Shown here one piece after another: positions 5,455-28,550 of a DNA stretch of 30,800 nt (positions are counted from its first letter, which is position 1; every line of letters starts with the position of its first letter). Below the pieces are notes generated by a model that worked only from the letters and a program-made list of their open reading frames with translations, made no database searches and was not told where the DNA came from. The translations under genes were made by a program, and so were the position numbers. Origin of the DNA: a virus; IMG/VR virus record IMGVR_UViG_3300046500_000077, positions 1-30,800 of that record. One strand, 5' to 3'.

Positions 5455-5461
5455 CCGATTG

Positions 5462-5533
5462 AGCCCCCTGGTGGATTCGAACCACCGCACCATGTTTACG
5501 AGACATGTGCTCTGCCCATTGAGCTAAGGGGGC
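5462..5533 (-). tRNA. tRNA-Thr (anticodon CGT)
   Basis: Complete cloverleaf on the minus strand. The acceptor GCCCCCT pairs with AGGGGGC, the D-stem is GCTC/GAGC, the anticodon arm is CATGT-CTCGTAA-ACATG, and the T-arm is GTGG-TTCGAAT-CCAC. The anticodon CGT reads ACG (Thr). The 3' CCA is not encoded. Confidence 0.95.
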
Positions 5534-5535
5534 GA

Positions 5536-5620
5536 AGTCCGCTGGGAGGGATTCGAACCCCCACGCCGCAAGGCATCCGGGTCTAAGCCGGACGTGTCTT
5601 CCGTTCCACCACCAGCGGGC
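5536..5620 (-). tRNA. tRNA-Leu (anticodon TAG)
   Basis: An 85-nt class II tRNA with a long variable arm (TGCCTTGCGGCG region). The anticodon arm is TCCGG-CTTAGAC-CCGGA, giving anticodon TAG, which reads CTA. The T-arm is GGGGG-TTCGAAT-CCCTC. The acceptor has a C-A mismatch at the second pair (GCCCGCT against AGCGGAC). CTA is rare in high-GC hosts, so this tRNA could help late phage translation (inference). Confidence 0.92.
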
Positions 5621-5699
5621 ACGCTGTGCGGTCTCCCCTTTAGCTCAGGGCTCCGTCTACACAGCGGCAGGGCAGGGCATTACCGGCAACGCCCCGCAG

Positions 5700-5772
5700 T
5701 AGGTCAGGTGGGACTTGAACCCACAGCATCCCGGTTAAGAGCCGGACACTCTACCAATTGAGCTACTGACCT
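5700..5772 (-). tRNA. tRNA-Lys (anticodon CTT)
   Basis: Perfect 7-bp acceptor AGGTCAG/CTGACCT, anticodon arm TCCGG-CTCTTAA-CCGGG with anticodon CTT, and T-arm GTGGG-TTCAAGT-CCCAC. No encoded CCA. Confidence 0.95.
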
Positions 5773-5845
5773 AGGCGGCAAGGGAACCTCTATCACCCAT
5801 TGCCAATGCGCACCCTGAACCATTACTTACGTGCGCTTCCTATCG

Positions 5846-5918
5846 CTGTCCCGGCTGGATTCGAACCAGCAACCCCCGGGGTAACAACCCGGCGCTCTGC
5901 CCATTGAGCTACGTGACA
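5846..5918 (-). tRNA. tRNA-Asn (anticodon GTT)
   Basis: Acceptor TGTCACG/CGGGACA with one internal A-G mismatch, D-stem GCTC/GAGC, anticodon arm CCGGG-TTGTTAC-CCCGG giving GTT, and T-arm GCTGG-TTCGAAT-CCAGC. Discriminator G. Confidence 0.93.
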
Positions 5919-6027
5919 TTGAGGGTTACTCGCCGCTCACTTTGCTTGTGACTAGCAAGCCAGTGTGAGCCGGTTTCACCCAGGGTGCTTATCGTCGGTC
6001 CGGTCAGGGACCTATTGTGAGCACCAG

Positions 6028-6112
6028 TGCCGCATCAAGGATTTGAACCAAGGACTTCCCCTCACCCATGGGCCCATGGTGGGGGCGCTCTTCCAGACTG
6101 AGCTAATGCGGC
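6028..6112 (-). tRNA. Degenerate tRNA-like gene, anticodon uncertain
   Basis: The acceptor stem (GCCGCAT/ATGCGGC) and D-arm (GCTC...GAGC) are perfect, and the T-loop TTCAAAT is present, but the T-stem has two mismatches (CTTGG against CCTTG). The region of the anticodon arm instead holds a near-perfect palindrome (CACCATGGGCCCATGG, with flanking CCCC/GGGG), so a normal 5-bp stem with a 7-base loop and T33 cannot be drawn convincingly. GGG (Pro) is one possible reading. It may be a decayed tRNA or one altered by palindrome insertion. Confidence 0.5.
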
Positions 6113-6115
6113 AAG

Positions 6116-6189
6116 CGCTTCGTACCGGATTCGAACCGGTGACCTTCGCCTTGACAAGGCGCTGCCCTAAGCCACTAGGCCAACGAAGC
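6116..6189 (-). tRNA. tRNA-Asp (anticodon GTC)
   Basis: Perfect acceptor GCTTCGT/ACGAAGC. The anticodon arm CGCC-TTGTCAA-GGCG gives GTC, and the T-arm is ACCGG-TTCGAAT-CCGGT. It is the first tRNA after the candidate promoter at 6322-6338, so it should lead the cluster transcript. Confidence 0.95.
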
Positions 6190-6321: not shown

Positions 6322-6338
6322 CTAGTGAGTCGAATGCC
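6322..6338 (-). promoter_or_regulatory. Phage promoter-like motif, copy a (tRNA cluster)
   Basis: Minus strand GGCATTCGACTCACTAG, a match to the 13-copy consensus. It lies upstream of the tRNA genes and 30 bases downstream of the 90-bp element R1, so it probably starts the tRNA transcript. Confidence 0.6.
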
Positions 6339-6831: not shown

Positions 6832-8457
6832 CTACATACGGGCTTCGGCTTCCACCTCATCATTCACGGCCATGAGCGCATCAGCCGCCGCATCAAAGAA
6901 CGGGTCACGGATCTCAAGCGATACCCGGCGTTCGTCCAGCGTGCGCCATCCACCAGCGGTACCGGCCAAGATGTCCAGCCGTGCCCCCGCGTTGGTCAGC
7001 ATCTTCCGCCTTCCAGCCGTGTCCGCCTTGACCCACTTTTCATCGTAGGTGCGGCCGGTCCTGATCTCTTCCATGCGGGCTTCAACCTTCTCCCTGGTCT
7101 CAAGCTCCGCCAGCCGGGCGTCAAGGGCGTCAGCGCGGGTCTGCCACGCCTTCTGAGCGGCGCTGGACTTCTGCCGCCCCTGTTGCGCCTGGTGGGCTTC
7201 AAACTCCGCCAGAGTGGCGTCAATCTCCGGCTGTGGGTCATACCCGGGAATGATGCGCGTGGACGTGATCTCAAGCCCACCCAGGATGCGAAGGAACTCA
7301 CGGGTCACGTACTCATCAACCCAGTCAGCGCGGATGTTCATGGGGTGCTTGCAGACCACGCCCCGGGACGCTGCACCACAACGGTACGTAGGCCGCTGAC
7401 CGGGCTTGCCCTCTTGCCGGTTCAGGTACATCTTGCTGCCGCACGAAGAGCAGTGAGCAATGCCGAACAGGAGCGCGTTGGTGTCCTTCCTGACTGAGCT
7501 TTTCACGGTCCGCTCATCCAGAAGGGCACCCACAGCATCAAACTCAGCGCGGGTAAGGATGGGCTCACGGGTGGCCATTACCGGCACACCTTCGCTGTCA
7601 CGCACGGGGAGTTTGCCGCTGAGCTTCCAGCCGATCAGCGTTTCAGAGCGCATGATGCGCGTAATGGTGGTGGCATTCCATCCCGTCGGCTTCTTGACTT
7701 CCCGCCCCTTGAATGCGGACCAGTGGTCAGACGGGGAGGGGACGTTATCGGCATTCAGCGCGAACACAATTGCATTCGCTGTCTCGCCTTCAAGAAGCGC
7801 CTTGATGATGCGCTCAATGACCTTTACGGCGTCCGGGTCCTGAACCAGGGTCCAGCCGCCACCTTCGAGCGGGGCAGGCATGTAGCCGTACGGCGCACGG
7901 GAACCACGCCAGCGGTAAGCCATCATGCGCATTGCCGCCTGAGCGCCGATCACGCGTTCCCGGATGGAGTGGGCTTCCATCTGAGCCGCGAAGGCGAAGA
8001 GCGTGACCATGAGCTGTGACATGGGGTCCAGCGGGTTGCGGAAGTCCAGCACCAGCCGCCCGCCGGGGCCCTCAGCGAAGACGATCATCTTCCGTTCGTC
8101 GCGTGCCCACTTCGCAAGCTCATGCATGTCATCCATGGACCGGATGGCACGGTCAAACCGCCAGAACACCAGGGCGTCAAAGTCATCCGGGCGACGAAGC
8201 CAGGCACCCAGCTCCGGGCGCTGGAAGGGTGTTGTCTTGCTTGCGCTGACTCCTAGGTCAACGGCCTTCCGGTCGGCAAGGTCAATGCCCAGTGCCCCGG
8301 CTGCCCCGTCGTTGGCGTTCTGCTGACGTTCAGGGCTGGTGGTCTCGTCAGTCAGTACGGACAGACGAAGGCAGGACACGCCCCGGAGGTGAGAGTTCAT
8401 AGGGCGTGGTGAGTGAGTCGAATGCTTCGTGCCGCTGACCAGGGCTTTTGCCATCAT
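6832..8457 (-). CDS. int: Large serine integrase, Bxb1-like
   Basis: Up to 541 residues; integrates phage DNA by recombining attP with attB. The resolvase domain starts with RLSVLTDETTSPERQ, whose Ser (S33 here) is the nucleophile and which closely resembles Bxb1 integrase; FWRFDRAIRSM and AQMEAHSIRER follow. The recombinase domain has WRGSRAPYGY, and the zinc domain has CSSCG, YRCG and VVCKH, followed by a coiled coil. Start: SD-like GGGAG lies 8 bases before the ATG at 8457. An internal ATG at 8400 gives a 522-residue protein with Ser at position 14, closer to the family, but lacks an SD; a promoter-like motif lies between the two starts. The attP candidate is immediately upstream. Confidence 0.95.
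   Translation of the reverse strand: MMAKALVSGTKHSTHSPRPMNSHLRGVSCLRLSVLTDETTSPERQQNANDGAAGALGIDLADRKAVDLGVSASKTTPFQRPELGAWLRRPDDFDALVFWRFDRAIRSMDDMHELAKWARDERKMIVFAEGPGGRLVLDFRNPLDPMSQLMVTLFAFAAQMEAHSIRERVIGAQAAMRMMAYRWRGSRAPYGYMPAPLEGGGWTLVQDPDAVKVIERIIKALLEGETANAIVFALNADNVPSPSDHWSAFKGREVKKPTGWNATTITRIMRSETLIGWKLSGKLPVRDSEGVPVMATREPILTRAEFDAVGALLDERTVKSSVRKDTNALLFGIAHCSSCGSKMYLNRQEGKPGQRPTYRCGAASRGVVCKHPMNIRADWVDEYVTREFLRILGGLEITSTRIIPGYDPQPEIDATLAEFEAHQAQQGRQKSSAAQKAWQTRADALDARLAELETREKVEARMEEIRTGRTYDEKWVKADTAGRRKMLTNAGARLDILAGTAGGWRTLDERRVSLEIRDPFFDAAADALMAVNDEVEAEARM
8410..8426 (-). promoter_or_regulatory. Phage promoter-like motif, copy b (integrase)
   Basis: Minus strand GCATTCGACTCACTCAC, 10 bases before the internal integrase ATG at 8400 and inside the longer integrase frame. 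If it is a promoter, the transcript would be nearly leaderless for the short form. Confidence 0.5.
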
Positions 8458-13911: not shown

Positions 13912-14117
13912 CAGCGCACTCCCCCGCCGTAGGTGTCAGCGAACCGAAGGCCATCGTTGATGCGAAGCACGCTGATCAGGTCCTGAGCCTCTTCGAGCGG
14001 CAGCGTGACCGTGCTGATGGTCTCGCCTTCCGGGTTGCGGGTCTGAAACTCCGTCTTGCCGTCCGCCTGCCCCGTGGTCTTGACCCGGTAACCGTTGGTG
14101 AGCTTGTACGTGGCCAC
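13911..14117 (-). CDS. Hypothetical 68-residue protein
   Basis: GTG at 14117 is chosen because AAAGGAGTTTTTCA precedes it. The product starts ATYKLTNGYRVKTTGQ and has a beta-rich first half (KTEFQTRNPEG, TISTVTLP) and a helix EEAQDLISVLRIN. The frame is open further upstream, but that part reads through the promoter-like motif at 14155-14171. It is coupled to the 58-residue protein. No family is recognised. Confidence 0.75.
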   Translation of the reverse strand: MATYKLTNGYRVKTTGQADGKTEFQTRNPEGETISTVTLPLEEAQDLISVLRINDGLRFADTYGGGVR

Positions 14118-14154: not shown

Positions 14155-14171
14155 CTAGGGAGTCGAATGCC
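14155..14171 (-). promoter_or_regulatory. Phage promoter-like motif, copy c
   Basis: Minus strand GGCATTCGACTCCCTAG followed at the fixed distance by CTTCGAAG. It drives the 68-residue/58-residue/thyX block. Its CCCTAG contains the stop codon of the upstream HNH gene, so it is partly coding. Confidence 0.65.
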
Positions 14172-14418: not shown

Positions 14419-15345
14419 TTACTTGCGTCCACCACGGCCAAGGTTGATGGCGGCAGCCTCAGTGAGTTCCTTCGCCTCAACGTCATCCTTGGCAACGGCC
14501 TTGATGTACCGCTTCGCGAACGCCTTGTGACCCTTCACGCGGGCATCACGCGCCGGAATGATGTCCAGACCCAACGCGGCAGCCAGCCCGGGAAGGTCAC
14601 CAGCGTCCCCCGTGCCGTAGCACTGCACATCACCAATGCCGTACGAGAGACGAAGGGCGTTGGCCTGGTTGTCGCTCATGGTGGCAAGGATGGCGTTCAC
14701 AATGGCGTGCTTCTGCCGCCGCTCTTCGCTGGTGATGTCCTCAGCGGTGACCAGGTCATCCGGCACACCCAGGGAAGACGCCAGCCCCTCAGCCAGGCTG
14801 TAAGACGCCTGGTAGTCCCCCTGAGACACGGAACCGGCCGAAGGGCCATCCACGGTCACAGCCGGGGCGTCAAGGCTTGCAGCGCCCTGCCACGCCATCC
14901 GGGCCGCCTGTGCACGGTCCGCGCTGAGTCGACGTCCCTTCGGGGGCACGGTCTGAGCGAACTTCTCGGCAAGGTAGACATCCCCGTCAGCCTTCTCAAG
15001 CATGGACGCGAACACCTTCAAGGCGTCTTCGTCAGCGCCCTGGTTGCGGGCTTCCCGGACCTTGTCCTTGAGCGCGTTCTCAATGGTGGCCCACATGAAC
15101 GCGTAGAAGGCATCCACGGTGTCACCCTCGAAGCGGGGCAGGGCTTCGAACATGGCAAGCGCGCCATCCTGCCGGAAGTCCTCCCGGAAGTCCTCAAAGC
15201 GCATCCCGTTCTGAGTCATGCGACGGGCGGCAGCGTCAGCCAGCTTCTCAATGCGGCCGGTCATGGCTTCGTTGACAGCCTCAAGCCCGGCAAAGCCGTT
15301 CGTCTGAGCGTCAGCGATCAGGGCAAGGGTCAGGGTCTCGGTCAT
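14419..15345 (-). CDS. Phage sigma-70-like transcription factor
   Basis: A 308-residue protein. Residues about 48-105 (FEDFREDFRQDGALAMFEAL, RFEG, AFYAFMWATIENAL, KDKVREAR) follow the pattern of sigma-70 region 2: the core-binding helix with DLVQEG-like DFRQDG, then FSTY/W-like AFYAFMW and a basic helix. Residues about 206-280 (ERRQKHAIVNAILATMSDNQ, RLSYGIG, LAAALGLDIIPARDARVKG) resemble region 4 with a helix-turn-helix. The ATG at 15345 has AAGGAAACACC upstream; the frame stays open to 15618 but without SD. It should redirect host RNA polymerase to phage promoters, probably the repeated GGCATTCGAC motif (inference). Confidence 0.75.
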   Translation of the reverse strand: MTETLTLALIADAQTNGFAGLEAVNEAMTGRIEKLADAAARRMTQNGMRFEDFREDFRQDGALAMFEALPRFEGDTVDAFYAFMWATIENALKDKVREARNQGADEDALKVFASMLEKADGDVYLAEKFAQTVPPKGRRLSADRAQAARMAWQGAASLDAPAVTVDGPSAGSVSQGDYQASYSLAEGLASSLGVPDDLVTAEDITSEERRQKHAIVNAILATMSDNQANALRLSYGIGDVQCYGTGDAGDLPGLAAALGLDIIPARDARVKGHKAFAKRYIKAVAKDDVEAKELTEAAAINLGRGGRK

Positions 15346-15367: not shown

Positions 15368-15387
15368 CTCACTCGGGTTTGAGTGAG
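15368..15387 (-). other. Leader hairpin before the sigma-like gene
   Basis: Perfect CTCACTC / GAGTGAG stem with loop AAACCC on the minus strand, starting inside the promoter-like motif copy d. It might be a transcript-start stem or a regulator of translation. Confidence 0.4.
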
Positions 15388-15400
15388 TGAGTCGAATGCT
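15384..15400 (-). promoter_or_regulatory. Phage promoter-like motif, copy d (sigma-like gene)
   Basis: Minus strand AGCATTCGACTCACTCA, 39 bases before the sigma-like start codon. If the sigma-like protein reads this motif, its own gene is autoregulated. Confidence 0.6.
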
Positions 15401-15804
15401 CGGAAGGGGCCTGACCGGGTACCGGATCTCATGTGACGTGGGGCACACCCTGTTTTAGGCATGGGGGTGCCGCAGTAGGTCACGTGGGAGACAGAGCGGG
15501 TTAGACCCCTTGAGCGGGGTTCCGCTTGTCCGAAGATCCGGCCGGGCGCTTCGGCTTTGCTGGTCCTGAGTACATACGTTTTTGCGTAGGTCCGCAACGC
15601 CGTTAAGCGCTGAACCACCTGCTAGACCAGGGACCGGGGCAGACGGTTGCGCGTTGATTCGAAGGCGTAACCAGGCTCATCCCTTGGATGTACCGGTTTG
15701 GCATATGCCGGGGCTGCAAAGATCCTTCGTTACATAGGCAACGGTCCTTAGTTGCACCGTCAGGCAACTGAACTAAAGAATCTTGAAAACTCGCGTTCCG
15801 GTAC
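15401..15804. other. Noncoding region between DNA polymerase and sigma-like gene
   Basis: No convincing gene on either strand. It holds several dyads: AGTTGC/GCAACT within a larger TTAGTT/AACTAA hairpin (about 15750-15780), palindrome GGCATATGCC near 15702, and a locally AT-rich part (15715-15795). Being flanked by replication genes, it is the best candidate in the window for a replication origin or for a regulatory RNA. Confidence 0.4.
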
Positions 15805-15826
15805 CACCTCCGAAAATCCGGAAGTG
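15805..15826. promoter_or_regulatory. Operator-like palindrome, copy 6
   Basis: CACCTCCG / AAAATC / CGGAAGTG. Its right arm forms part of the terminator stem at 15821-15863. Confidence 0.75.
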
Positions 15827-15863
15827 ACTACCCGTGCACCAGCCGGACACAGGTAGTCACTTC
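15821..15863 (-). terminator. Terminator hairpin after DNA polymerase, fused to an operator arm
   Basis: A perfect 12-bp stem GAAGTGACTACC / GGTAGTCACTTC with a 19-base loop, downstream of the polymerase stop. The stem includes the arm of the operator-like palindrome, so repressor binding and RNA folding use the same bases. Confidence 0.6.
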
Positions 15864-15877
15864 GGATGTGACGGGGG

Positions 15878-17782
15878 TTACACGTCAGCGCCGTACAGGC
15901 TTCCCCATGAGCGCTTCCCAATCTCAGCCTCAGCCGTGATGGGCACCCCGAACAGGTCGAAGGTCATGCACTCCTGAATGGTGGCGGCAATGTCCGTTGC
16001 TTCCGCCTTCGGGACACTTGCAAGCACTTCGTCATGAATCGGCAGGCGGAGGTACGGCAACATGCCGCGCTCTTCCAGCGTGATCAGGCTCTGTCCCAGA
16101 CAGTCACGGGCAACGGACTGGCAGGCGTAGTTCACCACGGCGTACATGCGCTCACGGTCCAGCGGAAGGCGACGGCCCGTAACGCTCAGGTGGACCATGC
16201 CAGTCTCGTGAGCTTCGCGCTGCCAGCGGTTAGACATGCGCTTGATTTCAGGGAACACGCGGTCATACTCAGCGAACGTCCGGCGCATGTCTTCCGGGTC
16301 GGCACCAGTCTGCCGGGCAACGCCCTTGTACCCACCCCCGTAGACCTTGCCGAAGCCAGCGCCCTTGAACATCTTGCGGTCAGCCTTCGTGGCACCAGGA
16401 CCCTTGACCAGACGCGCTGTGTACATGTGGATGTCAAACCCGTTCGGGTATTCATCCTTCGGGTACGCGTCCGCGTTCTGAAACCCGTGCTTCATCCGCT
16501 TCACGTCAGCCAGCGCGGCAAGGACACGCATCTCAACGGCACTGAAGTCAGTGGACACCATGACGTGTCCCTCTTCGGCCATCAGCGCACGCCGGATCAT
16601 GTAGTCACCAGACGGCAGCGTTTGAAGCGCCGGACGGGTCACGCTCATACGTCCCGTGCGCGCCTGCATGCTGTTGATGAACGGGTGAATCCGGCCGTCA
16701 GAGTCCATCGTTTCAAGGAAGGTGCCCGTGTAGGCAGAGCGCCACTTACCGGCACGCTTGCTCTTGATGATGGCTTCGGCAAGGGGGTTGGGCTTGCGCG
16801 TGTTCATGCGCTCACCAGACTGGAAGTCAAGGTCAGCGAAGCGGTGCAACACAGCCTTGTCTACCTTGAGCGCCCCGGTTGCCGTCAGCTCATCCGGCTG
16901 CCACTCCTCCCCCATGCCCGCAAGGGCTTCCCGGAGCTGTGCAGGGGCGTTCACGTTGGTCACCCCGTAGCGGAGCGCCTTAGCTTCGAACACGGCTGCC
17001 TCTTCGGCAAGTTGAGCGTCAAGCCCCTTCGTGTACGGCACGTCAAGGACCATGCCCGTTCGCTGCATGATGGCGCAGATACGGGCTATCTCGTGTTCGT
17101 ACTGAATCAGCCGGGGGCGCACTTCCAACATGTCAAGCTCACGGTCAAGACAGGAGTCAAGACGGGCAGCAAAGATGGGGTCAAGTCCCGCGTACAGAAG
17201 GTAAGTCGGGTGCCACAGGTCGATACCCGCCCACCCGGTTGCCTTCGTGAGCTTGAGCGACCGGAAGACGGCCGTCAGGTCTCCCTGAGTGTCCGGGGCC
17301 TTCGGGTCCACGTACCACGCCATGAGGGGTTTGAGGGCAGTGCCCCGCCCACCTTCCTGGGGCTGCCGGGGGTCGACTAGACCGGCCTTGAGACGCGTGT
17401 CAATGGTCTTCGGGGCCATGGCCTCAATGGAGCCGTTGAAGCCGTCCCCGGACGCGTGCCGGTCAATCACAGCCCAGTCAAAGGGCGCGTTGTGAATCTG
17501 AAACTTCGTGATGAAGTCAAGGGCACGCCGGGCGTAGTGCTGGAAGTAGCCACCCAGTTCCCACAGGATCACCCACCCGGTATGCCGGTCACCAAACTGG
17601 ACCGTGCGAAGCCGGTAGGTGGGGCTGTAGATGTCAAGCCCCGTGGTCTCCGTGTCCAGCGCAATGGGGCCACGCTTGTTGGCCTCAACAACCCAGCGCT
17701 TGAACTCCTCAAGGTCATCAAGGTTCTCAGGCACCTTGACAGTCACCGGGTCACCGGCAATGGCGTAAGGGAACGTCTTCAT
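15878..17782 (-). CDS. Family A DNA polymerase with 3'-5' exonuclease
   Basis: A 634-residue replicative polymerase. The proofreading domain is intact: D43 and E45 (LDTETTGL), HNAPFDW with D102, and Y197-x3-D201. Polymerase motif A is TDFSAVEMR with D412, motif B is RKMFKGAGFGKVYGGG (about 469-484), and motif C is H583-D584-E585. There is no 5'-3' nuclease domain, as usual in phage enzymes. Start: ATG at 17782 after GGGAGGAGAGACCCA; a longer in-frame start lies in the operator-like palindrome. It lies just downstream of the primase-helicase. Confidence 0.97.
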   Translation of the reverse strand: MKTFPYAIAGDPVTVKVPENLDDLEEFKRWVVEANKRGPIALDTETTGLDIYSPTYRLRTVQFGDRHTGWVILWELGGYFQHYARRALDFITKFQIHNAPFDWAVIDRHASGDGFNGSIEAMAPKTIDTRLKAGLVDPRQPQEGGRGTALKPLMAWYVDPKAPDTQGDLTAVFRSLKLTKATGWAGIDLWHPTYLLYAGLDPIFAARLDSCLDRELDMLEVRPRLIQYEHEIARICAIMQRTGMVLDVPYTKGLDAQLAEEAAVFEAKALRYGVTNVNAPAQLREALAGMGEEWQPDELTATGALKVDKAVLHRFADLDFQSGERMNTRKPNPLAEAIIKSKRAGKWRSAYTGTFLETMDSDGRIHPFINSMQARTGRMSVTRPALQTLPSGDYMIRRALMAEEGHVMVSTDFSAVEMRVLAALADVKRMKHGFQNADAYPKDEYPNGFDIHMYTARLVKGPGATKADRKMFKGAGFGKVYGGGYKGVARQTGADPEDMRRTFAEYDRVFPEIKRMSNRWQREAHETGMVHLSVTGRRLPLDRERMYAVVNYACQSVARDCLGQSLITLEERGMLPYLRLPIHDEVLASVPKAEATDIAATIQECMTFDLFGVPITAEAEIGKRSWGSLYGADV

Positions 17783-17854: not shown

Positions 17855-20290
17855 TCAGTCCTGAGCGAAGATGCCCGGACCCGTCTTCGAAGTGGCGCTA
17901 GGGAGTCGAATGCCTACCAGGGCCATCCCCTTAGCCGTACGCGTGCGAGTGATGCCGCGCTCTTCCATGGCCCCGTAGAACGCGCGACGGGTCCAACGCT
18001 CCTTGGCAGGCAGGTTCTCAGCCTCACACCAGTCAAGGTAAGCGTTGAACGCTTCGCCACCATCCATGCGGGCAGAGTCATCCGCCACCAGGACACCCGG
18101 GAAGAAACCCGCCAGCGCGTCACTGGTCTCCTTGTACTCCTTCGTGGCAGCGCTGATGCTGGCAGGGTCTTGCAGCCCGTCACGGAACCACTCAACAGCC
18201 CCACGGACAGCCCACGCGGCAATACCCTTCGCTTCGGCTTCCAGCTTCTTGTCAAGGCTGTAGTCCCGCTCATGCGGAGCAAAGAACCGGGTAAAGGGAA
18301 TCATCTTGACGCGTCGCCAGAGACCTTCGTCCTGACCCCGGAACTTCGGCTTATGGTTCGTCGCCAGCATGAGCAGAAACGAAGGCTTGAATTCGAAGAA
18401 CTCTTGCCGAAGGAACCGGGCGGCAATCATGTCCTTGCCCGTGACACGCTTGAGCACAGCCTCAGACATGGGCTTGCCGGACTCACCCTCAGACGCCATC
18501 ACCAGGCGCGAACCACGGAGCGCCGCAATGTCGTTAGGGATGCCGCCATTCGCCTTCTCTTCGAACGTGGCAAAGGGCGTGGTCTTGCTGATGGTCCGGA
18601 ACACACTGGACAGCGTGTCAGTCAGGACACTCTTGCCGTTCGCACCCTTCCCCCACAGCACACAGAAACACTGCTCATCCGTGTAGCCCGTGATGCCGTA
18701 GCCAATGATGCGCTGCATGTACGGCACAAGGTCAGGGTTGTCCGGGAAGACCTCAGTCATGAACTGTTCCCAGCGGGGGCAGGTGGCAGCCGGGTCATAC
18801 TCGATGTCAAGGCAGTACGTCAACATGTCAGCCTTGTCATGCGCCCGGAGCTTCCCAGTGCGAAGGTTCACGGTGCCGTTGCGGAAGCTCAGAAGGTGCG
18901 GCCGGTTGTCGAAGTCAGACGCCTCAACGTAGACCGTGGGGACCGAACGAAGCTCAGTCATCAGGTCATTGATGCGCGTGGTCATGGTGAACCCACGGGC
19001 TTCCTTGACCTTGCCAGCCAGCACCAGGGCAGCGCCCATGCGGTGAATCTCCTGACGCACCTTGACCTCAGAACGGGACCAGGTACGGCCGTTCCACACG
19101 TAGAAACCCAGACCAGGCGCGAACTTGATACGGCCATCGGACCAGGCAACCAGCGCGTGAGCGTTCATGGCGTCCGTGTCGCCGTAGCGCTCAAGGAGAC
19201 CAGCCAGGATGCGGGCAGCCTCATTGCCCTGGTCCCGGCTGACAATGTCCGCCCCGGTCGCTTCGCTCAACTCTTCGCTGACGGCTTCCCGTTGGGCCTC
19301 TTCCGGCTTCGCTACCGGCTTCGCAGACTTCACGGCCTTGTGCAGGCTCAGGGCAAACGCCATGGGCTCAGACTCGCGCCACTCAGTCAGGTCCGTCTTC
19401 GGTCCCAGCTTCGGAATGGGCAGCGCGTAGACCGGAATGCCGTACGCCTTGAGCCCTTCCGCAAGCGCCATGTTGAAGCCCTGCCCGGCTGTGTCGACGT
19501 CCCCACACGCAATGACCTGTGAACCCTTGAGCCCTTCGGCAAGCTCAGCCAGAAGGTCAGGGTTGGACACCAGGGCAGCGCCCCGGACCATCACCACGTC
19601 ATACCCCACGGAAACCGCTGTAAGCCCGTCTCCGGGCCCCTCAGTGACCAGGGTGACCCCGTAGCCGCCCTGACCCCGGAACACGCCGTACGGGGACCAG
19701 CGGAAGCCTTCCGGGTTGCGCAGAGACAGCCAACGCCCCGGGCACTCCCCCGTGATGTCACGCCCCTGCAAGCCACGCGGCATACCGACGAAGTCACACA
19801 GCGGCACAGTCACCCGGGGGAACGCCTTGAAGGAGCGCGTCAGGTACGGGAAGGGGTCATTCACATCCGGCCCGTCATACCCGATACCCAGTTCATACGC
19901 CGTGTCAGCGTCCATGCCGAAGCGGTCAGCAAGGTAGTCCCGGGCACGCTCCTGCCACTCCCCCTCTTCGGGCAGCCGGTCACGCGCGTCATCAACGTAG
20001 CCAGCAAGGGCGGCAGTCTGAGCAACACCCACAATGGCGGGCTTCTCCTTCGGGACCGTAGCGCCCTCACCATCAGCGTTGAACAGGTCCGGCCACGTCA
20101 GGCCAGCCGCCTTGACCACGTCACCCGTGGGGCAGCCGACACGGCACGTGATGCGGACCTTGTTGTCATCCCCACGCCAGATACGTAGCGACGGGTCAGA
20201 GTCTCCGTGCGACGGGCACAGGGTGATGTACCCGCCGTCTTCGTGCTCACTCACACCTTCGAAGTGGTCCAGCAACTCAACGAACAGCAC
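17855..20290 (-). CDS. Primase-helicase (zinc, Toprim and SF3 domains)
   Basis: An 811-residue multifunctional replication protein. The N-terminal zinc motif is C25, H28, C49, C53 (LCPSHGD, CRVGC). Toprim follows: VTEGPGDG (E217) and GDVDTAGQG (about 263-270, DxD), for RNA primer synthesis. The D5-type SF3 helicase has Walker A GKGANGKS (547-554), Walker B LVMASEGE (596-603), sensor N645 in ATNHKP, and arginine fingers in LWRRVK (R659-R660). GTG at 20290 has AGGAAGG seven bases upstream. The last 20 residues are encoded by promoter-like motif copy e. Confidence 0.95.
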   Translation of the reverse strand: MLFVELLDHFEGVSEHEDGGYITLCPSHGDSDPSLRIWRGDDNKVRITCRVGCPTGDVVKAAGLTWPDLFNADGEGATVPKEKPAIVGVAQTAALAGYVDDARDRLPEEGEWQERARDYLADRFGMDADTAYELGIGYDGPDVNDPFPYLTRSFKAFPRVTVPLCDFVGMPRGLQGRDITGECPGRWLSLRNPEGFRWSPYGVFRGQGGYGVTLVTEGPGDGLTAVSVGYDVVMVRGAALVSNPDLLAELAEGLKGSQVIACGDVDTAGQGFNMALAEGLKAYGIPVYALPIPKLGPKTDLTEWRESEPMAFALSLHKAVKSAKPVAKPEEAQREAVSEELSEATGADIVSRDQGNEAARILAGLLERYGDTDAMNAHALVAWSDGRIKFAPGLGFYVWNGRTWSRSEVKVRQEIHRMGAALVLAGKVKEARGFTMTTRINDLMTELRSVPTVYVEASDFDNRPHLLSFRNGTVNLRTGKLRAHDKADMLTYCLDIEYDPAATCPRWEQFMTEVFPDNPDLVPYMQRIIGYGITGYTDEQCFCVLWGKGANGKSVLTDTLSSVFRTISKTTPFATFEEKANGGIPNDIAALRGSRLVMASEGESGKPMSEAVLKRVTGKDMIAARFLRQEFFEFKPSFLLMLATNHKPKFRGQDEGLWRRVKMIPFTRFFAPHERDYSLDKKLEAEAKGIAAWAVRGAVEWFRDGLQDPASISAATKEYKETSDALAGFFPGVLVADDSARMDGGEAFNAYLDWCEAENLPAKERWTRRAFYGAMEERGITRTRTAKGMALVGIRLPSATSKTGPGIFAQD
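17898..17914 (-). promoter_or_regulatory. Phage promoter-like motif, copy e (DNA polymerase)
   Basis: Minus strand GGCATTCGACTCCCTAG with CTTCGAAG at the fixed distance. It lies inside the 3' end of the primase-helicase gene and encodes its GIRLPSATSK tail. Confidence 0.6.
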
Positions 20291-20322: not shown

Positions 20323-20339
20323 TGAGTGAGTCGAATGCC
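20323..20339 (-). promoter_or_regulatory. Phage promoter-like motif, copy f (primase-helicase)
   Basis: Minus strand GGCATTCGACTCACTCA with CTTCGAAG at the fixed distance, 33 bases upstream of the primase-helicase start. Confidence 0.65.
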
Positions 20340-22698: not shown

Positions 22699-22715
22699 CT
22701 AGGGGGTCGAATGCC
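22699..22715 (-). promoter_or_regulatory. Phage promoter-like motif, copy g (RDF-like gene)
   Basis: Minus strand GGCATTCGACCCCCTAG with CTTCGAAG at the fixed distance. Confidence 0.6.
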
Positions 22716-22754: not shown

Positions 22755-22771
22755 CTAGAGAGTCGAATGCC
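22755..22771 (-). promoter_or_regulatory. Phage promoter-like motif, copy h (tandem)
   Basis: Minus strand GGCATTCGACTCTCTAG, 56 bases upstream of copy g. It is the only tandem pair in the window; both would drive the RDF-like gene. Confidence 0.55.
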
Positions 22772-23103: not shown

Positions 23104-23120
23104 CTAGGGGGTCGAATGCC
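23104..23120 (-). promoter_or_regulatory. Phage promoter-like motif, copy i (membrane protein)
   Basis: Minus strand GGCATTCGACCCCCTAG with CTTCGAAG at the fixed distance, upstream of the 75-residue membrane protein and ending at the exonuclease stop. Confidence 0.65.
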
Positions 23121-24011: not shown

Positions 24012-24028
24012 CTAGTGAGTCGAAGGCC
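24012..24028 (-). promoter_or_regulatory. Phage promoter-like motif, copy j (exonuclease)
   Basis: Minus strand GGCCTTCGACTCACTAG (one change in the core), 4 bases downstream of repeat R2 and 32 upstream of the exonuclease start. Confidence 0.55.
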
Positions 24029-24494: not shown

Positions 24495-24511
24495 CTAGGG
24501 AGTCGAATGCC
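24495..24511 (-). promoter_or_regulatory. Phage promoter-like motif, copy k, abutting an operator
   Basis: Minus strand GGCATTCGACTCCCTAG. It shares one base with the operator-like palindrome copy 9 and ends at the ribosome binding site, leaving room for only a very short leader. Confidence 0.65.
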
Positions 24512-24532
24512 ACTTACGGATTTTCGGAGGTG
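24511..24532. promoter_or_regulatory. Operator-like palindrome, copy 9
   Basis: CACTTACG / GATTTT / CGGAGGTG, directly upstream of promoter-like motif k, the clearest operator-promoter pair in the window. Confidence 0.78.
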
Positions 24533-24590: not shown

Positions 24591-25925
24591 TTACAGCGTG
24601 GCGGCAATCATGGCCGTGATGGCCTTCTTGGCCTCTTCCAGCTTCTTGCGCGCCGCTTCCTTCGTGGCGTCCGTGGCGTTCTCGAAGTCATCCGGGTTGC
24701 CAGTCCCAATGTCCTTGAGGAGCTTGTCAGCCAGCTTCGTCACGCGCTCATCCGGCGTGGTGGTGTCCGCCGTGGTCTCGCCAGCGCCCTCCCCTTCGCC
24801 TTCGCCGCCCTCACCGGCACCCTCACCGGCACCACCAGCGGCCTCAAGCTCCTTGGCCTTCTGCTTTTCCTGGTAGGCAAGGCGCTTGCGCTCAGACTGA
24901 CCGATGGTCGACGTGCCGTACGCCTTAGCGACGAACTCAGACGCGGGGACATCTTCCGGCTTGCCCTCAAGCACCTTCGCCACCCGGGCCCGGCGCTCCG
25001 CTGCCTCTTCCGTGTCCTCATCCAGCGACCGAAGCCACGCGGCACGGACGTCAGAGCGGTAGTCCTGAACCGAGCGCGTCAGCTTCTTGAGCGCCTGCTC
25101 ATTGTCCCAGGTGTGTTCGAAGCCCTCACCGGCCATCTTGATGAGCGCCGTGCCTGCCTTCTTGGCAGCGTCCGAAGCAACCATCAGGTCAGGGTTGTCA
25201 TCCTTGTTGGGGATGCGAGTGACCATGTCGAAGGCGACGGCCGCAACTTCCATGGCCACGTTGGAAGCCTTGAGGTTCAGGCGGACGCCCTCAGCCAGCT
25301 TCTCAGCGCCCATGGCTGCAAGCTCCTGAGTGCCTTCGTACTGGTCCCACGCCTTCTGAACAACCACGCCCTCAGCCGCCTTCTTGGCAACCTCCTTGGC
25401 CTTCGGCTTCTCAACCAGGGTGGCGGCTTCGGCCCACTGGTTGCGCTTCTCCTTCTTGGCCTTGATGGAGTCCTTGCCGCTCAGCGCGCTGATGATGGTC
25501 TCCGTCTCCTCCTTCAACTCCGCCAGCCCCTCAACGTTCTCCGCCTCAGCCAGAGACCGGGCACGCTCAATGTTGGCGTCAATCTGCTCAAGGGCAGCCT
25601 TGCCATCCTCCGTGTTGACGTCCAGCTTCGCGGCGGTCTTCTCAGCCATGGTCTCTCCCGTGTTTCCGTTGGTGTTGCTGACAGACGGAACATTAGCAGA
25701 CTCCGGGGCGTCCGTGTCTGCCACTTCCGAATTTTCGTAGGTGGTCTCTTCGGCAGCCTTCGCCAGCGCCTTGAGGCAGTTCGCGCAGTTCACGTCACCG
25801 CGCACTTCCCGGTATCCCTCAGCCGCGCGGTTGCCGCCACAGATGGGGAGGGACATGTAACCCTGGTGCTTCCGGGCCGCGTGAATCTTGCCGGTCCTGA
25901 GCTGAATGTTGACCATGGTGTCCAT
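24591..25925 (-). CDS. Acidic coiled-coil protein with N-terminal zinc module (two possible starts)
   Basis: A 444-residue frame from ATG 25925 (GAAGGGGCGGGGAC upstream). Residues 1-60 form a small Cys module (PICGG and NCANC). Residues about 61-90 are a polar linker partly encoded by an operator-like palindrome (TTYENSEVAD). A second start, ATG 25649, has its own SD GGGAGAGACC and would give a 352-residue protein (MAEKTAAKLDV...). The rest is Ala/Glu/Lys-rich helix, with a Gly/Glu low-complexity stretch (GAGEGAGEGGEGEGEG) before a short helical tail. No family is recognised. It may be one fused protein or two products. Confidence 0.72.
   Translation of the reverse strand: MDTMVNIQLRTGKIHAARKHQGYMSLPICGGNRAAEGYREVRGDVNCANCLKALAKAAEETTYENSEVADTDAPESANVPSVSNTNGNTGETMAEKTAAKLDVNTEDGKAALEQIDANIERARSLAEAENVEGLAELKEETETIISALSGKDSIKAKKEKRNQWAEAATLVEKPKAKEVAKKAAEGVVVQKAWDQYEGTQELAAMGAEKLAEGVRLNLKASNVAMEVAAVAFDMVTRIPNKDDNPDLMVASDAAKKAGTALIKMAGEGFEHTWDNEQALKKLTRSVQDYRSDVRAAWLRSLDEDTEEAAERRARVAKVLEGKPEDVPASEFVAKAYGTSTIGQSERKRLAYQEKQKAKELEAAGGAGEGAGEGGEGEGEGAGETTADTTTPDERVTKLADKLLKDIGTGNPDDFENATDATKEAARKKLEEAKKAITAMIAATL
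25645..25664 (-). promoter_or_regulatory. Internal ribosome binding site and second start
   Basis: Minus-strand GGGAGAGACC followed by ATG at 25649, inside the long frame 24591-25925. The site is as good as those of neighbouring genes and suggests a separate 352-residue product. Confidence 0.5.
25722..25743. promoter_or_regulatory. Operator-like palindrome, copy 10, within coding sequence
   Basis: CACTTCCG / AATTTT / CGTAGGTG, read in frame as part of the linker of the 444-residue protein, about 75 bases upstream of the internal start. Confidence 0.7.
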
Positions 25926-25996
25926 GTCCCCGCCCCTTCGTTGTGTGCTTGCGTGATCAGTATGGGGGGTGCCGGGACCTGGTTGCAAGTCCCGAC

Positions 25997-27157: not shown

Positions 27158-27194
27158 ACTCTCTCCGTCCGGGGATTGCCCTTCGGGAGAGAGT
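27158..27194 (-). promoter_or_regulatory. SD-sequestering leader hairpin of the dNMP kinase
   Basis: ACTCTCTCC (27158-27166) pairs perfectly with GGAGAGAGT (27186-27194). In the minus-strand RNA this hides the ribosome binding site GGAGAG before the ATG at 27153. The upstream strand begins at the promoter-like motif l. Confidence 0.5.
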
Positions 27195-27210
27195 GAGTGA
27201 GTCGAATGCC
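27194..27210 (-). promoter_or_regulatory. Phage promoter-like motif, copy l (dNMP kinase)
   Basis: Minus strand GGCATTCGACTCACTCA; at the second-box position the sequence TCCCGAAG is a partial match to CTTCGAAG. Confidence 0.6.
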
Positions 27211-28533: not shown

Positions 28534-28550
28534 CTAGGGAGTGGAAAGCC
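28534..28550 (-). promoter_or_regulatory. Phage promoter-like motif, copy m (endolysin)
   Basis: Minus strand GGCTTTCCACTCCCTAG, two differences from the consensus core, 39 bases upstream of the endolysin start. It partly overlaps the terminator at 28547-28574. Confidence 0.45.

Follow-up and report, generated by a model that had tools for sequence, protein, structure and literature searches.

PhiC31 is a classic phage of Streptomyces, and its integrase is in wide use. Its lytic ("early") promoters are reportedly phage-specific and activated on induction, and we know of no identified factor that reads them. These promoters reportedly resemble one another, lie between early genes, and depend on the lytic cycle, and in this respect they resemble the sites described here. 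The sigma annotation of phiC31 gp12 is already known, as the protein carries the name "RNA polymerase sigma factor" in RefSeq, which is an annotation only. In a literature search, gp12 was nowhere connected with a set of promoters, with the phiC31 promoter papers of the 1990s lying outside the reach of that search. A further phage-encoded sigma factor that has its own promoter set and uses the host core polymerase is T4 gp55. It lacks region 4, recognizes a −10-only element (TATAAATA), depends on gp33 and on the gp45 clamp, and acts at late genes. The bacterial group 3 sigma factors (FliA/WhiG/SigB type) contain regions 2, 3, and 4 and are devoid of region 1.1, which is also the case for the factor analyzed here.

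The window, i.e., the whole analyzed stretch of 30,800 bases from an IMG/VR record, is close to the Streptomyces phage Rowa and has the same gene order, with identities of 87% for the primase, 84% for the DNA polymerase, and 94% for the large terminase. On its minus strand, the gene at 14419..15345 (read 15345 -> 14419) encodes a protein of 308 amino acids that is homologous to Rowa gp42 (NC_047906; 78% identity over the full length) and to phiC31 gp12 (NC_001978; 51% identity in the N-terminal half). As in Rowa and phiC31, the upstream neighbor is the gene for DNA polymerase I, and an HNH gene follows downstream, as in Rowa. The initial annotation had described a region 2-like block and a region 4-like block near residues 206–280, and both blocks were indeed found in this protein. 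The gap between the polymerase and the sigma gene (15400-15880) is noncoding. It has a length of about 440–700 nt in all relatives aligned, and blocks such as TTTCAAGATTnTTTAG and GGTTACGCCTTCGAATC recur in many of these; Rfam gave no match in this gap. It may be a leader RNA, an origin, or a host-promoter region.

The window protein could be divided into region 2 (about residues 1–104), region 3 (about 105–160, followed by a 3.2-like linker), and region 4 (about 200–285). Region 2 was matched by the Pfam model Sigma70_r2 with an E-value of 2e-7, above the curated cut-off, and the same model matched 16 of 16 members of the family alignment A1. The protein also matched PHROG 15865 ("RNA polymerase sigma factor") with an E-value of 1e-108 and NCBIfam TIGR02937 with 2.9e-11, again above the cut-off; the latter is a superfamily model. 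Both the sequence and the position after DNA polymerase I place the protein in the PHROG 15865/phiC31 gp12 family. No Pfam region-4 match was obtained when the window protein was searched alone. A profile of 57 family sequences matched the isolated region-4 chains 1tlh_B and 3t72, and a profile of 16 sequences aligned with SigA (8h3v, 1.7e-7) through regions 2, 3, and 4, including the SLDxP linker. Region 3, which had been missed initially, is represented in the family alignment by a conserved block between regions 2 and 4 that ends with SLDxP and was read as regions 3.1–3.2; Sigma70_r3 was found in 3 of the 16 alignment members. An AlphaFold model from the single sequence was unusable (pLDDT 40), and the 57-sequence alignment was required for a model with a pLDDT of 88.5. 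In that model, region 4 is predicted to contain helices at residues 251–258 and 262–284, consistent with a helix-turn-helix. The best 50 matches listed in a Foldseek search of the PDB were all RNA polymerase/sigma entries, e.g., 8x6g_H (SigB) and 5ipl_F (SigmaS); two matches were integrative models, assigned here at the level of the entry. The alignments covered most of the length of the sigma factor, but the TM-scores were low (about 0.3) and the rmsd was high, which is expected if the domains are differently placed. Taken together, the profile, family, and structure evidence supports the identification of the window protein as a phage-encoded sigma-70 family factor with regions 2, 3, and 4.

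The presence of region 4 and region 3 makes the factor neither gp55-like nor ECF-like. The parallel to T4 gp55 that had been drawn in the initial annotation therefore holds in principle, but not in the architecture and not in the targets: the window factor has regions 2, 3, and 4 and a longer, GC-rich motif, and this motif is found before the primase, polymerase, and integrase genes as well as before late genes. An ECF (group 4) factor was rejected because region 3 is present in the family, and a primary (group 1) factor was rejected because the profile matches begin at region 1.2/2, with no additional N-terminal domain. None of the group 3 subfamily cut-offs (FliA/WhiG/SigB type) was reached, and the similarity of family members to FliA/WhiG was weak. 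The family differs from group 3 in that phiC31-type members have regions 3 and 4 separated by long inserts and that the −35/−10 spacing is not canonical. The insert of the phiC31-type sigma factors (L002:29958-31148 and others) comprises about 80–90 residues and is missing in the window protein. The sigma factors of Sebastisaurus and Heather (L009:30256-31260, L013:30334-31347) have an extra C-terminal segment with CxxC...CxxC pairs that is absent elsewhere and is possibly a zinc ribbon. A search of the genome collection did not reveal a close prophage copy.

The window contains a directional motif of about 17 bp, GGCATTCGACTCmCTAG, and every copy points in the direction of transcription. A search for GGCATTCGACTC that allowed one mismatch gave 12 sense copies and 0 antisense copies (0.09 expected per shuffle). 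A weaker 13th copy (GGCTTTCCACTCCCTAG at 28550) is retained at the same place in Rowa, which carries the window motif in the same sense. The 13 places reported in the initial annotation, one of them before the sigma gene itself, were thus recovered. For motif discovery, seeding from intergenic regions worked, whereas codon bias dominated the k-mers over-represented in whole genomes, and this approach was abandoned. All copies are on the minus strand. They are situated before the endolysin gene (28534..28550, the variant copy, with a conserved counterpart at position 17334 of Rowa), before the dNMP kinase gene (27194..27210), after the repressor gene and before a 73-aa ORF (24495..24511; ATG 24484), before the exonuclease gene, which is early gene 1 (24012..24028), after the exonuclease gene and before the Rowa gp31 homologue (23104..23120), in tandem before the RDF-like gene, the Rowa gp32 homologue (22755..22771 and 22699..22715), 49 nt before the DNA primase gene (20323..20339), before the DNA polymerase gene (17898..17914), 55 nt upstream of the sigma gene (AGCATTCGACTCACTCA, 15384..15400), at the 3′ end of the HNH gene before the Rowa gp44 homologue at 14117 (14155..14171), before the serine integrase gene (8410..8426; ATG 8400), and, in a late-promoter position, before the tRNA cluster and the HNH/terminase/portal genes (6322..6338). 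Genes for replication, integration, lysis, and late functions are alike preceded by the motif, in contrast to the late promoters of gp55.

The majority of the copies precede a start codon by about 50 nt, as would be expected for a translation-related or RNA-level signal resembling the start-associated sequences of cluster K mycobacteriophages. The distance to the start codon, however, varies from 24 to more than 170 nt, and the motif changes together with the sigma factor, as described below. In addition, the copy at 6322..6338 is directly followed by six tRNA genes (Thr, Leu, Lys, Asn, Gly, and Asp; 5461-6189, minus strand), which argues against a translation signal. This explanation is therefore regarded as extremely improbable.

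A second family of sites is formed by the palindrome CACCTCCGGATTTTCGGAGGTG, of which 13 copies with up to 3 mismatches were found at 2404-28598 (0 expected). One of them, the operator-like palindrome CACTTACGGATTTTCGGAGGTG (24511..24532, no strand), adjoins the motif copy at 24511. The palindrome is likely to be the operator of the immunity repressor, which is encoded at 24591..25988 on the minus strand (Pfam Phage_Repressor_c, 4e-72). The existence of this family is relevant for the possibility that the directional motif is the site of another phage DNA-binding protein, i.e., an activator or a repressor with sites of the L5 stoperator type, and that other sites are used by the sigma factor. 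Like the L5 stoperators, the motif has an asymmetric sequence and a fixed direction and recurs between genes, but the separate palindromic family fits the repressor and makes the stoperator reading unlikely. The counterpart palindrome of phiC31, CTACTCACGTGAGTAG, differs in sequence from that of the window. AbbeyMikolon has the palindrome CTCACGTGAG in common with phiC31, but not the directional motif, whereas Rowa and phiC31 have the CGACTCnCT core in common, but not the palindrome. These patterns indicate that the two site families evolve separately.

The motifs of relatives were seeded solely from the region before each sigma gene. In 12 of the 12 annotated relatives, the sigma gene is preceded by a copy of a sense-strand motif particular to that phage, with Attoomi being a weak case, and most environmental loci also have one. 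In nearly every relative, the motif is located about 50 nt before the sigma gene. The motif of phiC31 is GGTTGCCGACTCCCTT (11 sites) and thus differs from GGCATTCGACTCmCTAG of the window; in both phiC31 and Rowa, copies are present before the sigma gene and before the tRNA/late region. The motifs of other phages are GTCACCGACTCCCTT (phiBT1 and Lilbooboo), GTCGCCGACTCCCTT (TG1), GGAATCCCCTCCGCTC (Sebastisaurus and Heather), GGCCGCTGACnCC (AbbeyMikolon), and approximately CTTAACCnACTC (Shaeky, Sycamore, and Shady). PhiSASD1 gp13 and Dubu gp36 are divergent family members (E-values of 1e-37 and 2e-32 to the profile). PhiSASD1 contains the motif GGGGACGTCCTCCCC, although the region before its sigma gene yielded no copy, and in divergent members (Attoomi, L078-L094), the motif was weak or not found.

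Phages first need the host polymerase and a host sigma factor, and in phiBT1, a TTGACA stretch was noticed just upstream of the sigma-gene motif by reading the sequence. Both points would fit a host-type promoter for a housekeeping or alternative sigma factor of Streptomyces, with the phage sigma factor as a minor accessory. However, phages of one host species have different motifs, namely phiBT1 and AbbeyMikolon for S. lividans and Rowa and Attoomi for S. azureus, which speaks against a host reader. The motif differences follow the phage sigma factor instead, and no match to an E. coli-type sigma-70 promoter was found around the sigma gene. Recognition by a host factor is therefore considered to be very improbable.

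The covariation of motif and sigma factor was quantified with loci that had been filtered for a confident motif, with the register of two divergent clades set by hand. Motif distance correlated with sigma distance (r 0.62, 44 loci) in a Mantel test, a type of test that overstates significance for related sequences, and the loci represent a small effective number of independent clades. When polymerase, primase, RDF, or ThyX distance was controlled for, r was 0.53–0.58 (44 loci). When the motif was taken from sites more than 1.5 kb upstream or more than 0.3 kb downstream of the sigma gene, r was still 0.62 (43 loci). No other protein family tested was superior to sigma, and sigma retained r values of 0.52–0.78 under control for each non-sigma family. 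The parts of the motif followed different parts of the protein: the 3′ block (positions 12–16) followed region 2 (partial r 0.45), the middle (positions 6–11) followed regions 3 and 4 (0.43 and 0.36), and the 5′ block (positions 0–5) followed region 4 only (0.19), and thus, the order of the domains matches their order on a promoter. An unsupervised ranking of all residues against the motif positions placed residue 268, in the presumed region-4 recognition helix, first for positions 2 and 5. A nearest-neighbor test of domains and half-sites with 31 loci was not significant (p=0.08 and 0.21), and in this test, the 5′ half of L086 went the other way.

A natural exchange of region 4 was found among four groups of loci that differ in the combination of 5′ and 3′ blocks: GGTAAC/GACAG (L044, L073, and L076, with GCTAAC in L073), GGTAAC/GCTAG (L046, L059, L039, and L052), TGCGTT/GACAG (L036 and L034), and TGCGTT/GCTAG (L042). 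In region 2, groups with the same 3′ block resemble each other most, with an identity of 0.86 for the GACAG pair and 0.65 for the GCTAG pair, but 0.43–0.46 for the other pairs. In region 4, the groups with the same 5′ block do so, with 0.59 for the TGCGTT pair and 0.51 for the GGTAAC pair, compared with 0.39–0.45 for the other pairs. L036 is near-isogenic to L073 and L076: its polymerase is 89–90% and its primase 90–95% identical to those of L044, L073, and L076, and residues 1–180 of its sigma factor are 73–100% identical to L073/L076 in 30-residue windows. In contrast, only about a third of its region 4 is identical to L073/L076, and the closest region 4 in the four-group set is that of L042. 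In the approximately 20 kb compared, no gene of L036 was closer to L042 apart from this part of the sigma gene. In the tree of regions 2–3, L036 grouped with L044/L073/L076 (100/100), and a grouping with L042 was rejected (p 5e-32); in the tree of region 4, L036 grouped with L042 (99/93), and a grouping with L044/L073/L076 was rejected (p 0.006, with few columns). The trees support a replacement of region 4 in L036. At syntenic sites, six for L076 and seven for L073, the 5′ block of L036 had identities of only 0.22 and 0.02, respectively, whereas the 3′ block was kept (0.90 and 0.91). The flanks of these sites had identities of 0.45–0.54 (ungapped), and thus, the 5′ block falls below its surroundings. 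The simplest reading of these sequence comparisons is that region 4 reads the 5′ half of the motif.

Given the replacement of region 4 and the matching genome-wide changes of the 5′ half-sites, the motif sites are very likely read by the sigma factor. Correspondingly, the window sigma factor very likely reads its approximately 13 directional promoter-like sites. The connection between protein and motif had been an inference in the initial annotation and now has comparative support from the covariation, the match of half-motifs and domains, and the region-4 replacement. The same results bear on the possibility of another DNA-binding protein. RDF-like and some neighboring proteins keep a small correlation after sigma control (at most 0.25 in well-sampled families and as much as 0.42 in one family of n=15), and the repressor lay outside most of the loci compared. 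However, no other testable family explains the motif as well as sigma, the half-motifs follow the sigma domains in promoter order, and sigma region 4 is the only protein segment of L036 found to follow L042 in about 20 kb. Another reader of the motif is therefore improbable.

In addition to the observed sigma architecture, the directional motif, the covariation, and the natural region-4 replacement, a mechanism can be proposed that we hold with high confidence: the phage sigma factor would redirect the Streptomyces core polymerase to about 13 promoters of its own of about 17 bp, one of them in front of the sigma gene, and silencing in lysogens would be due to the repressor and the palindromic operators. 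A host sigma factor or leakage would produce the first sigma transcripts. The phage sigma factor would then direct the core RNA polymerase of Streptomyces to the phage promoters, probably by direct binding to GGCATT-CGACTC-mCTAG, an almost uninterrupted element of about 17 bp. Region 4 would read the 5′ block, region 3 the middle as an extended −10, and region 2 the 3′ block as the −10 element. The promoter before the sigma gene would generate a positive feedback, and the other motif promoters would drive the replication, integrase, lysis, and tRNA/late units. In lysogens, the repressor would keep the system silent by acting at the palindromic operators.

The position of the transcription start was deduced from signals at a fixed distance. 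An alignment of nine phages at the motif showed a G-A-A purine step at positions 26–28, and the T content falls to 3–10% just after it. In eight annotated phages, the next genes start 24–27 nt (6 cases) or at least 38 nt from the 5′ end of the motif, and no start codon was found between 27 and 38 nt. From these purine and start-codon signals, we infer that transcription begins near +26, counted from the first position of the motif. The integrase ATG at 8400 is in frame and exactly 26 nt from the motif 5′ end, and the resolvase domain begins shortly thereafter; therefore, the integrase start is better set at 8400 than at 8457. For the 73-aa ORF, the distance between the ATG (24484) and the 5′ end of the motif is 27 nt, and the mRNAs of both genes appear to be candidates for leaderless transcripts. 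An arrangement with the motif as a −35 element and a −10 element at +24 to +29 is disfavored, since start codons lie at +24 to +27.

With a start near +26, the motif would span about −26 to −10, and the half-sites of regions 4 and 2 would be about 12 bp apart. The centers of a canonical −35/−10 pair are about 23 bp apart. The distance would thus be about half of the canonical one, and reading by region 4 at about −24 would be unusual. Accordingly, the compact geometry is the least certain of all claims. We tentatively put forward, as a reading that falls somewhat short of being probable, a spacer-less promoter without a −35 box at which region 4 contacts about −26 to −21 beside the extended −10/−10, and which has been reprogrammed in nature by an exchange of region 4 with a genome-wide matching change of the 5′ half-sites. 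To our knowledge, such an architecture has not been described for the sigma-70 family.

The pairing of sigma factors and promoters, their modularity, and the compact promoter of about 17 bp are new as far as our literature search reached. The factor that reads the phiC31 lytic promoters appears not to be established, and gp12 can now be named as a candidate, with the 11 phiC31 motif sites as candidate lytic promoters. Sites are also predicted in phiBT1, TG1, Rowa, and others. Sigma/promoter pairs with half-sites that follow separate domains offer material for studying how promoter specificity evolves. A regulator that changes together with about a dozen sites is a case for evolution, and such pairs might also serve as orthogonal promoter tools in Streptomyces. 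As a minor observation, the loci L046 and L070 belong to one record of 81.7 kb (IMGVR_UViG_3300046690_000279) that contains two family sigma genes about 40 kb apart and may represent two joined phages or a misassembly.
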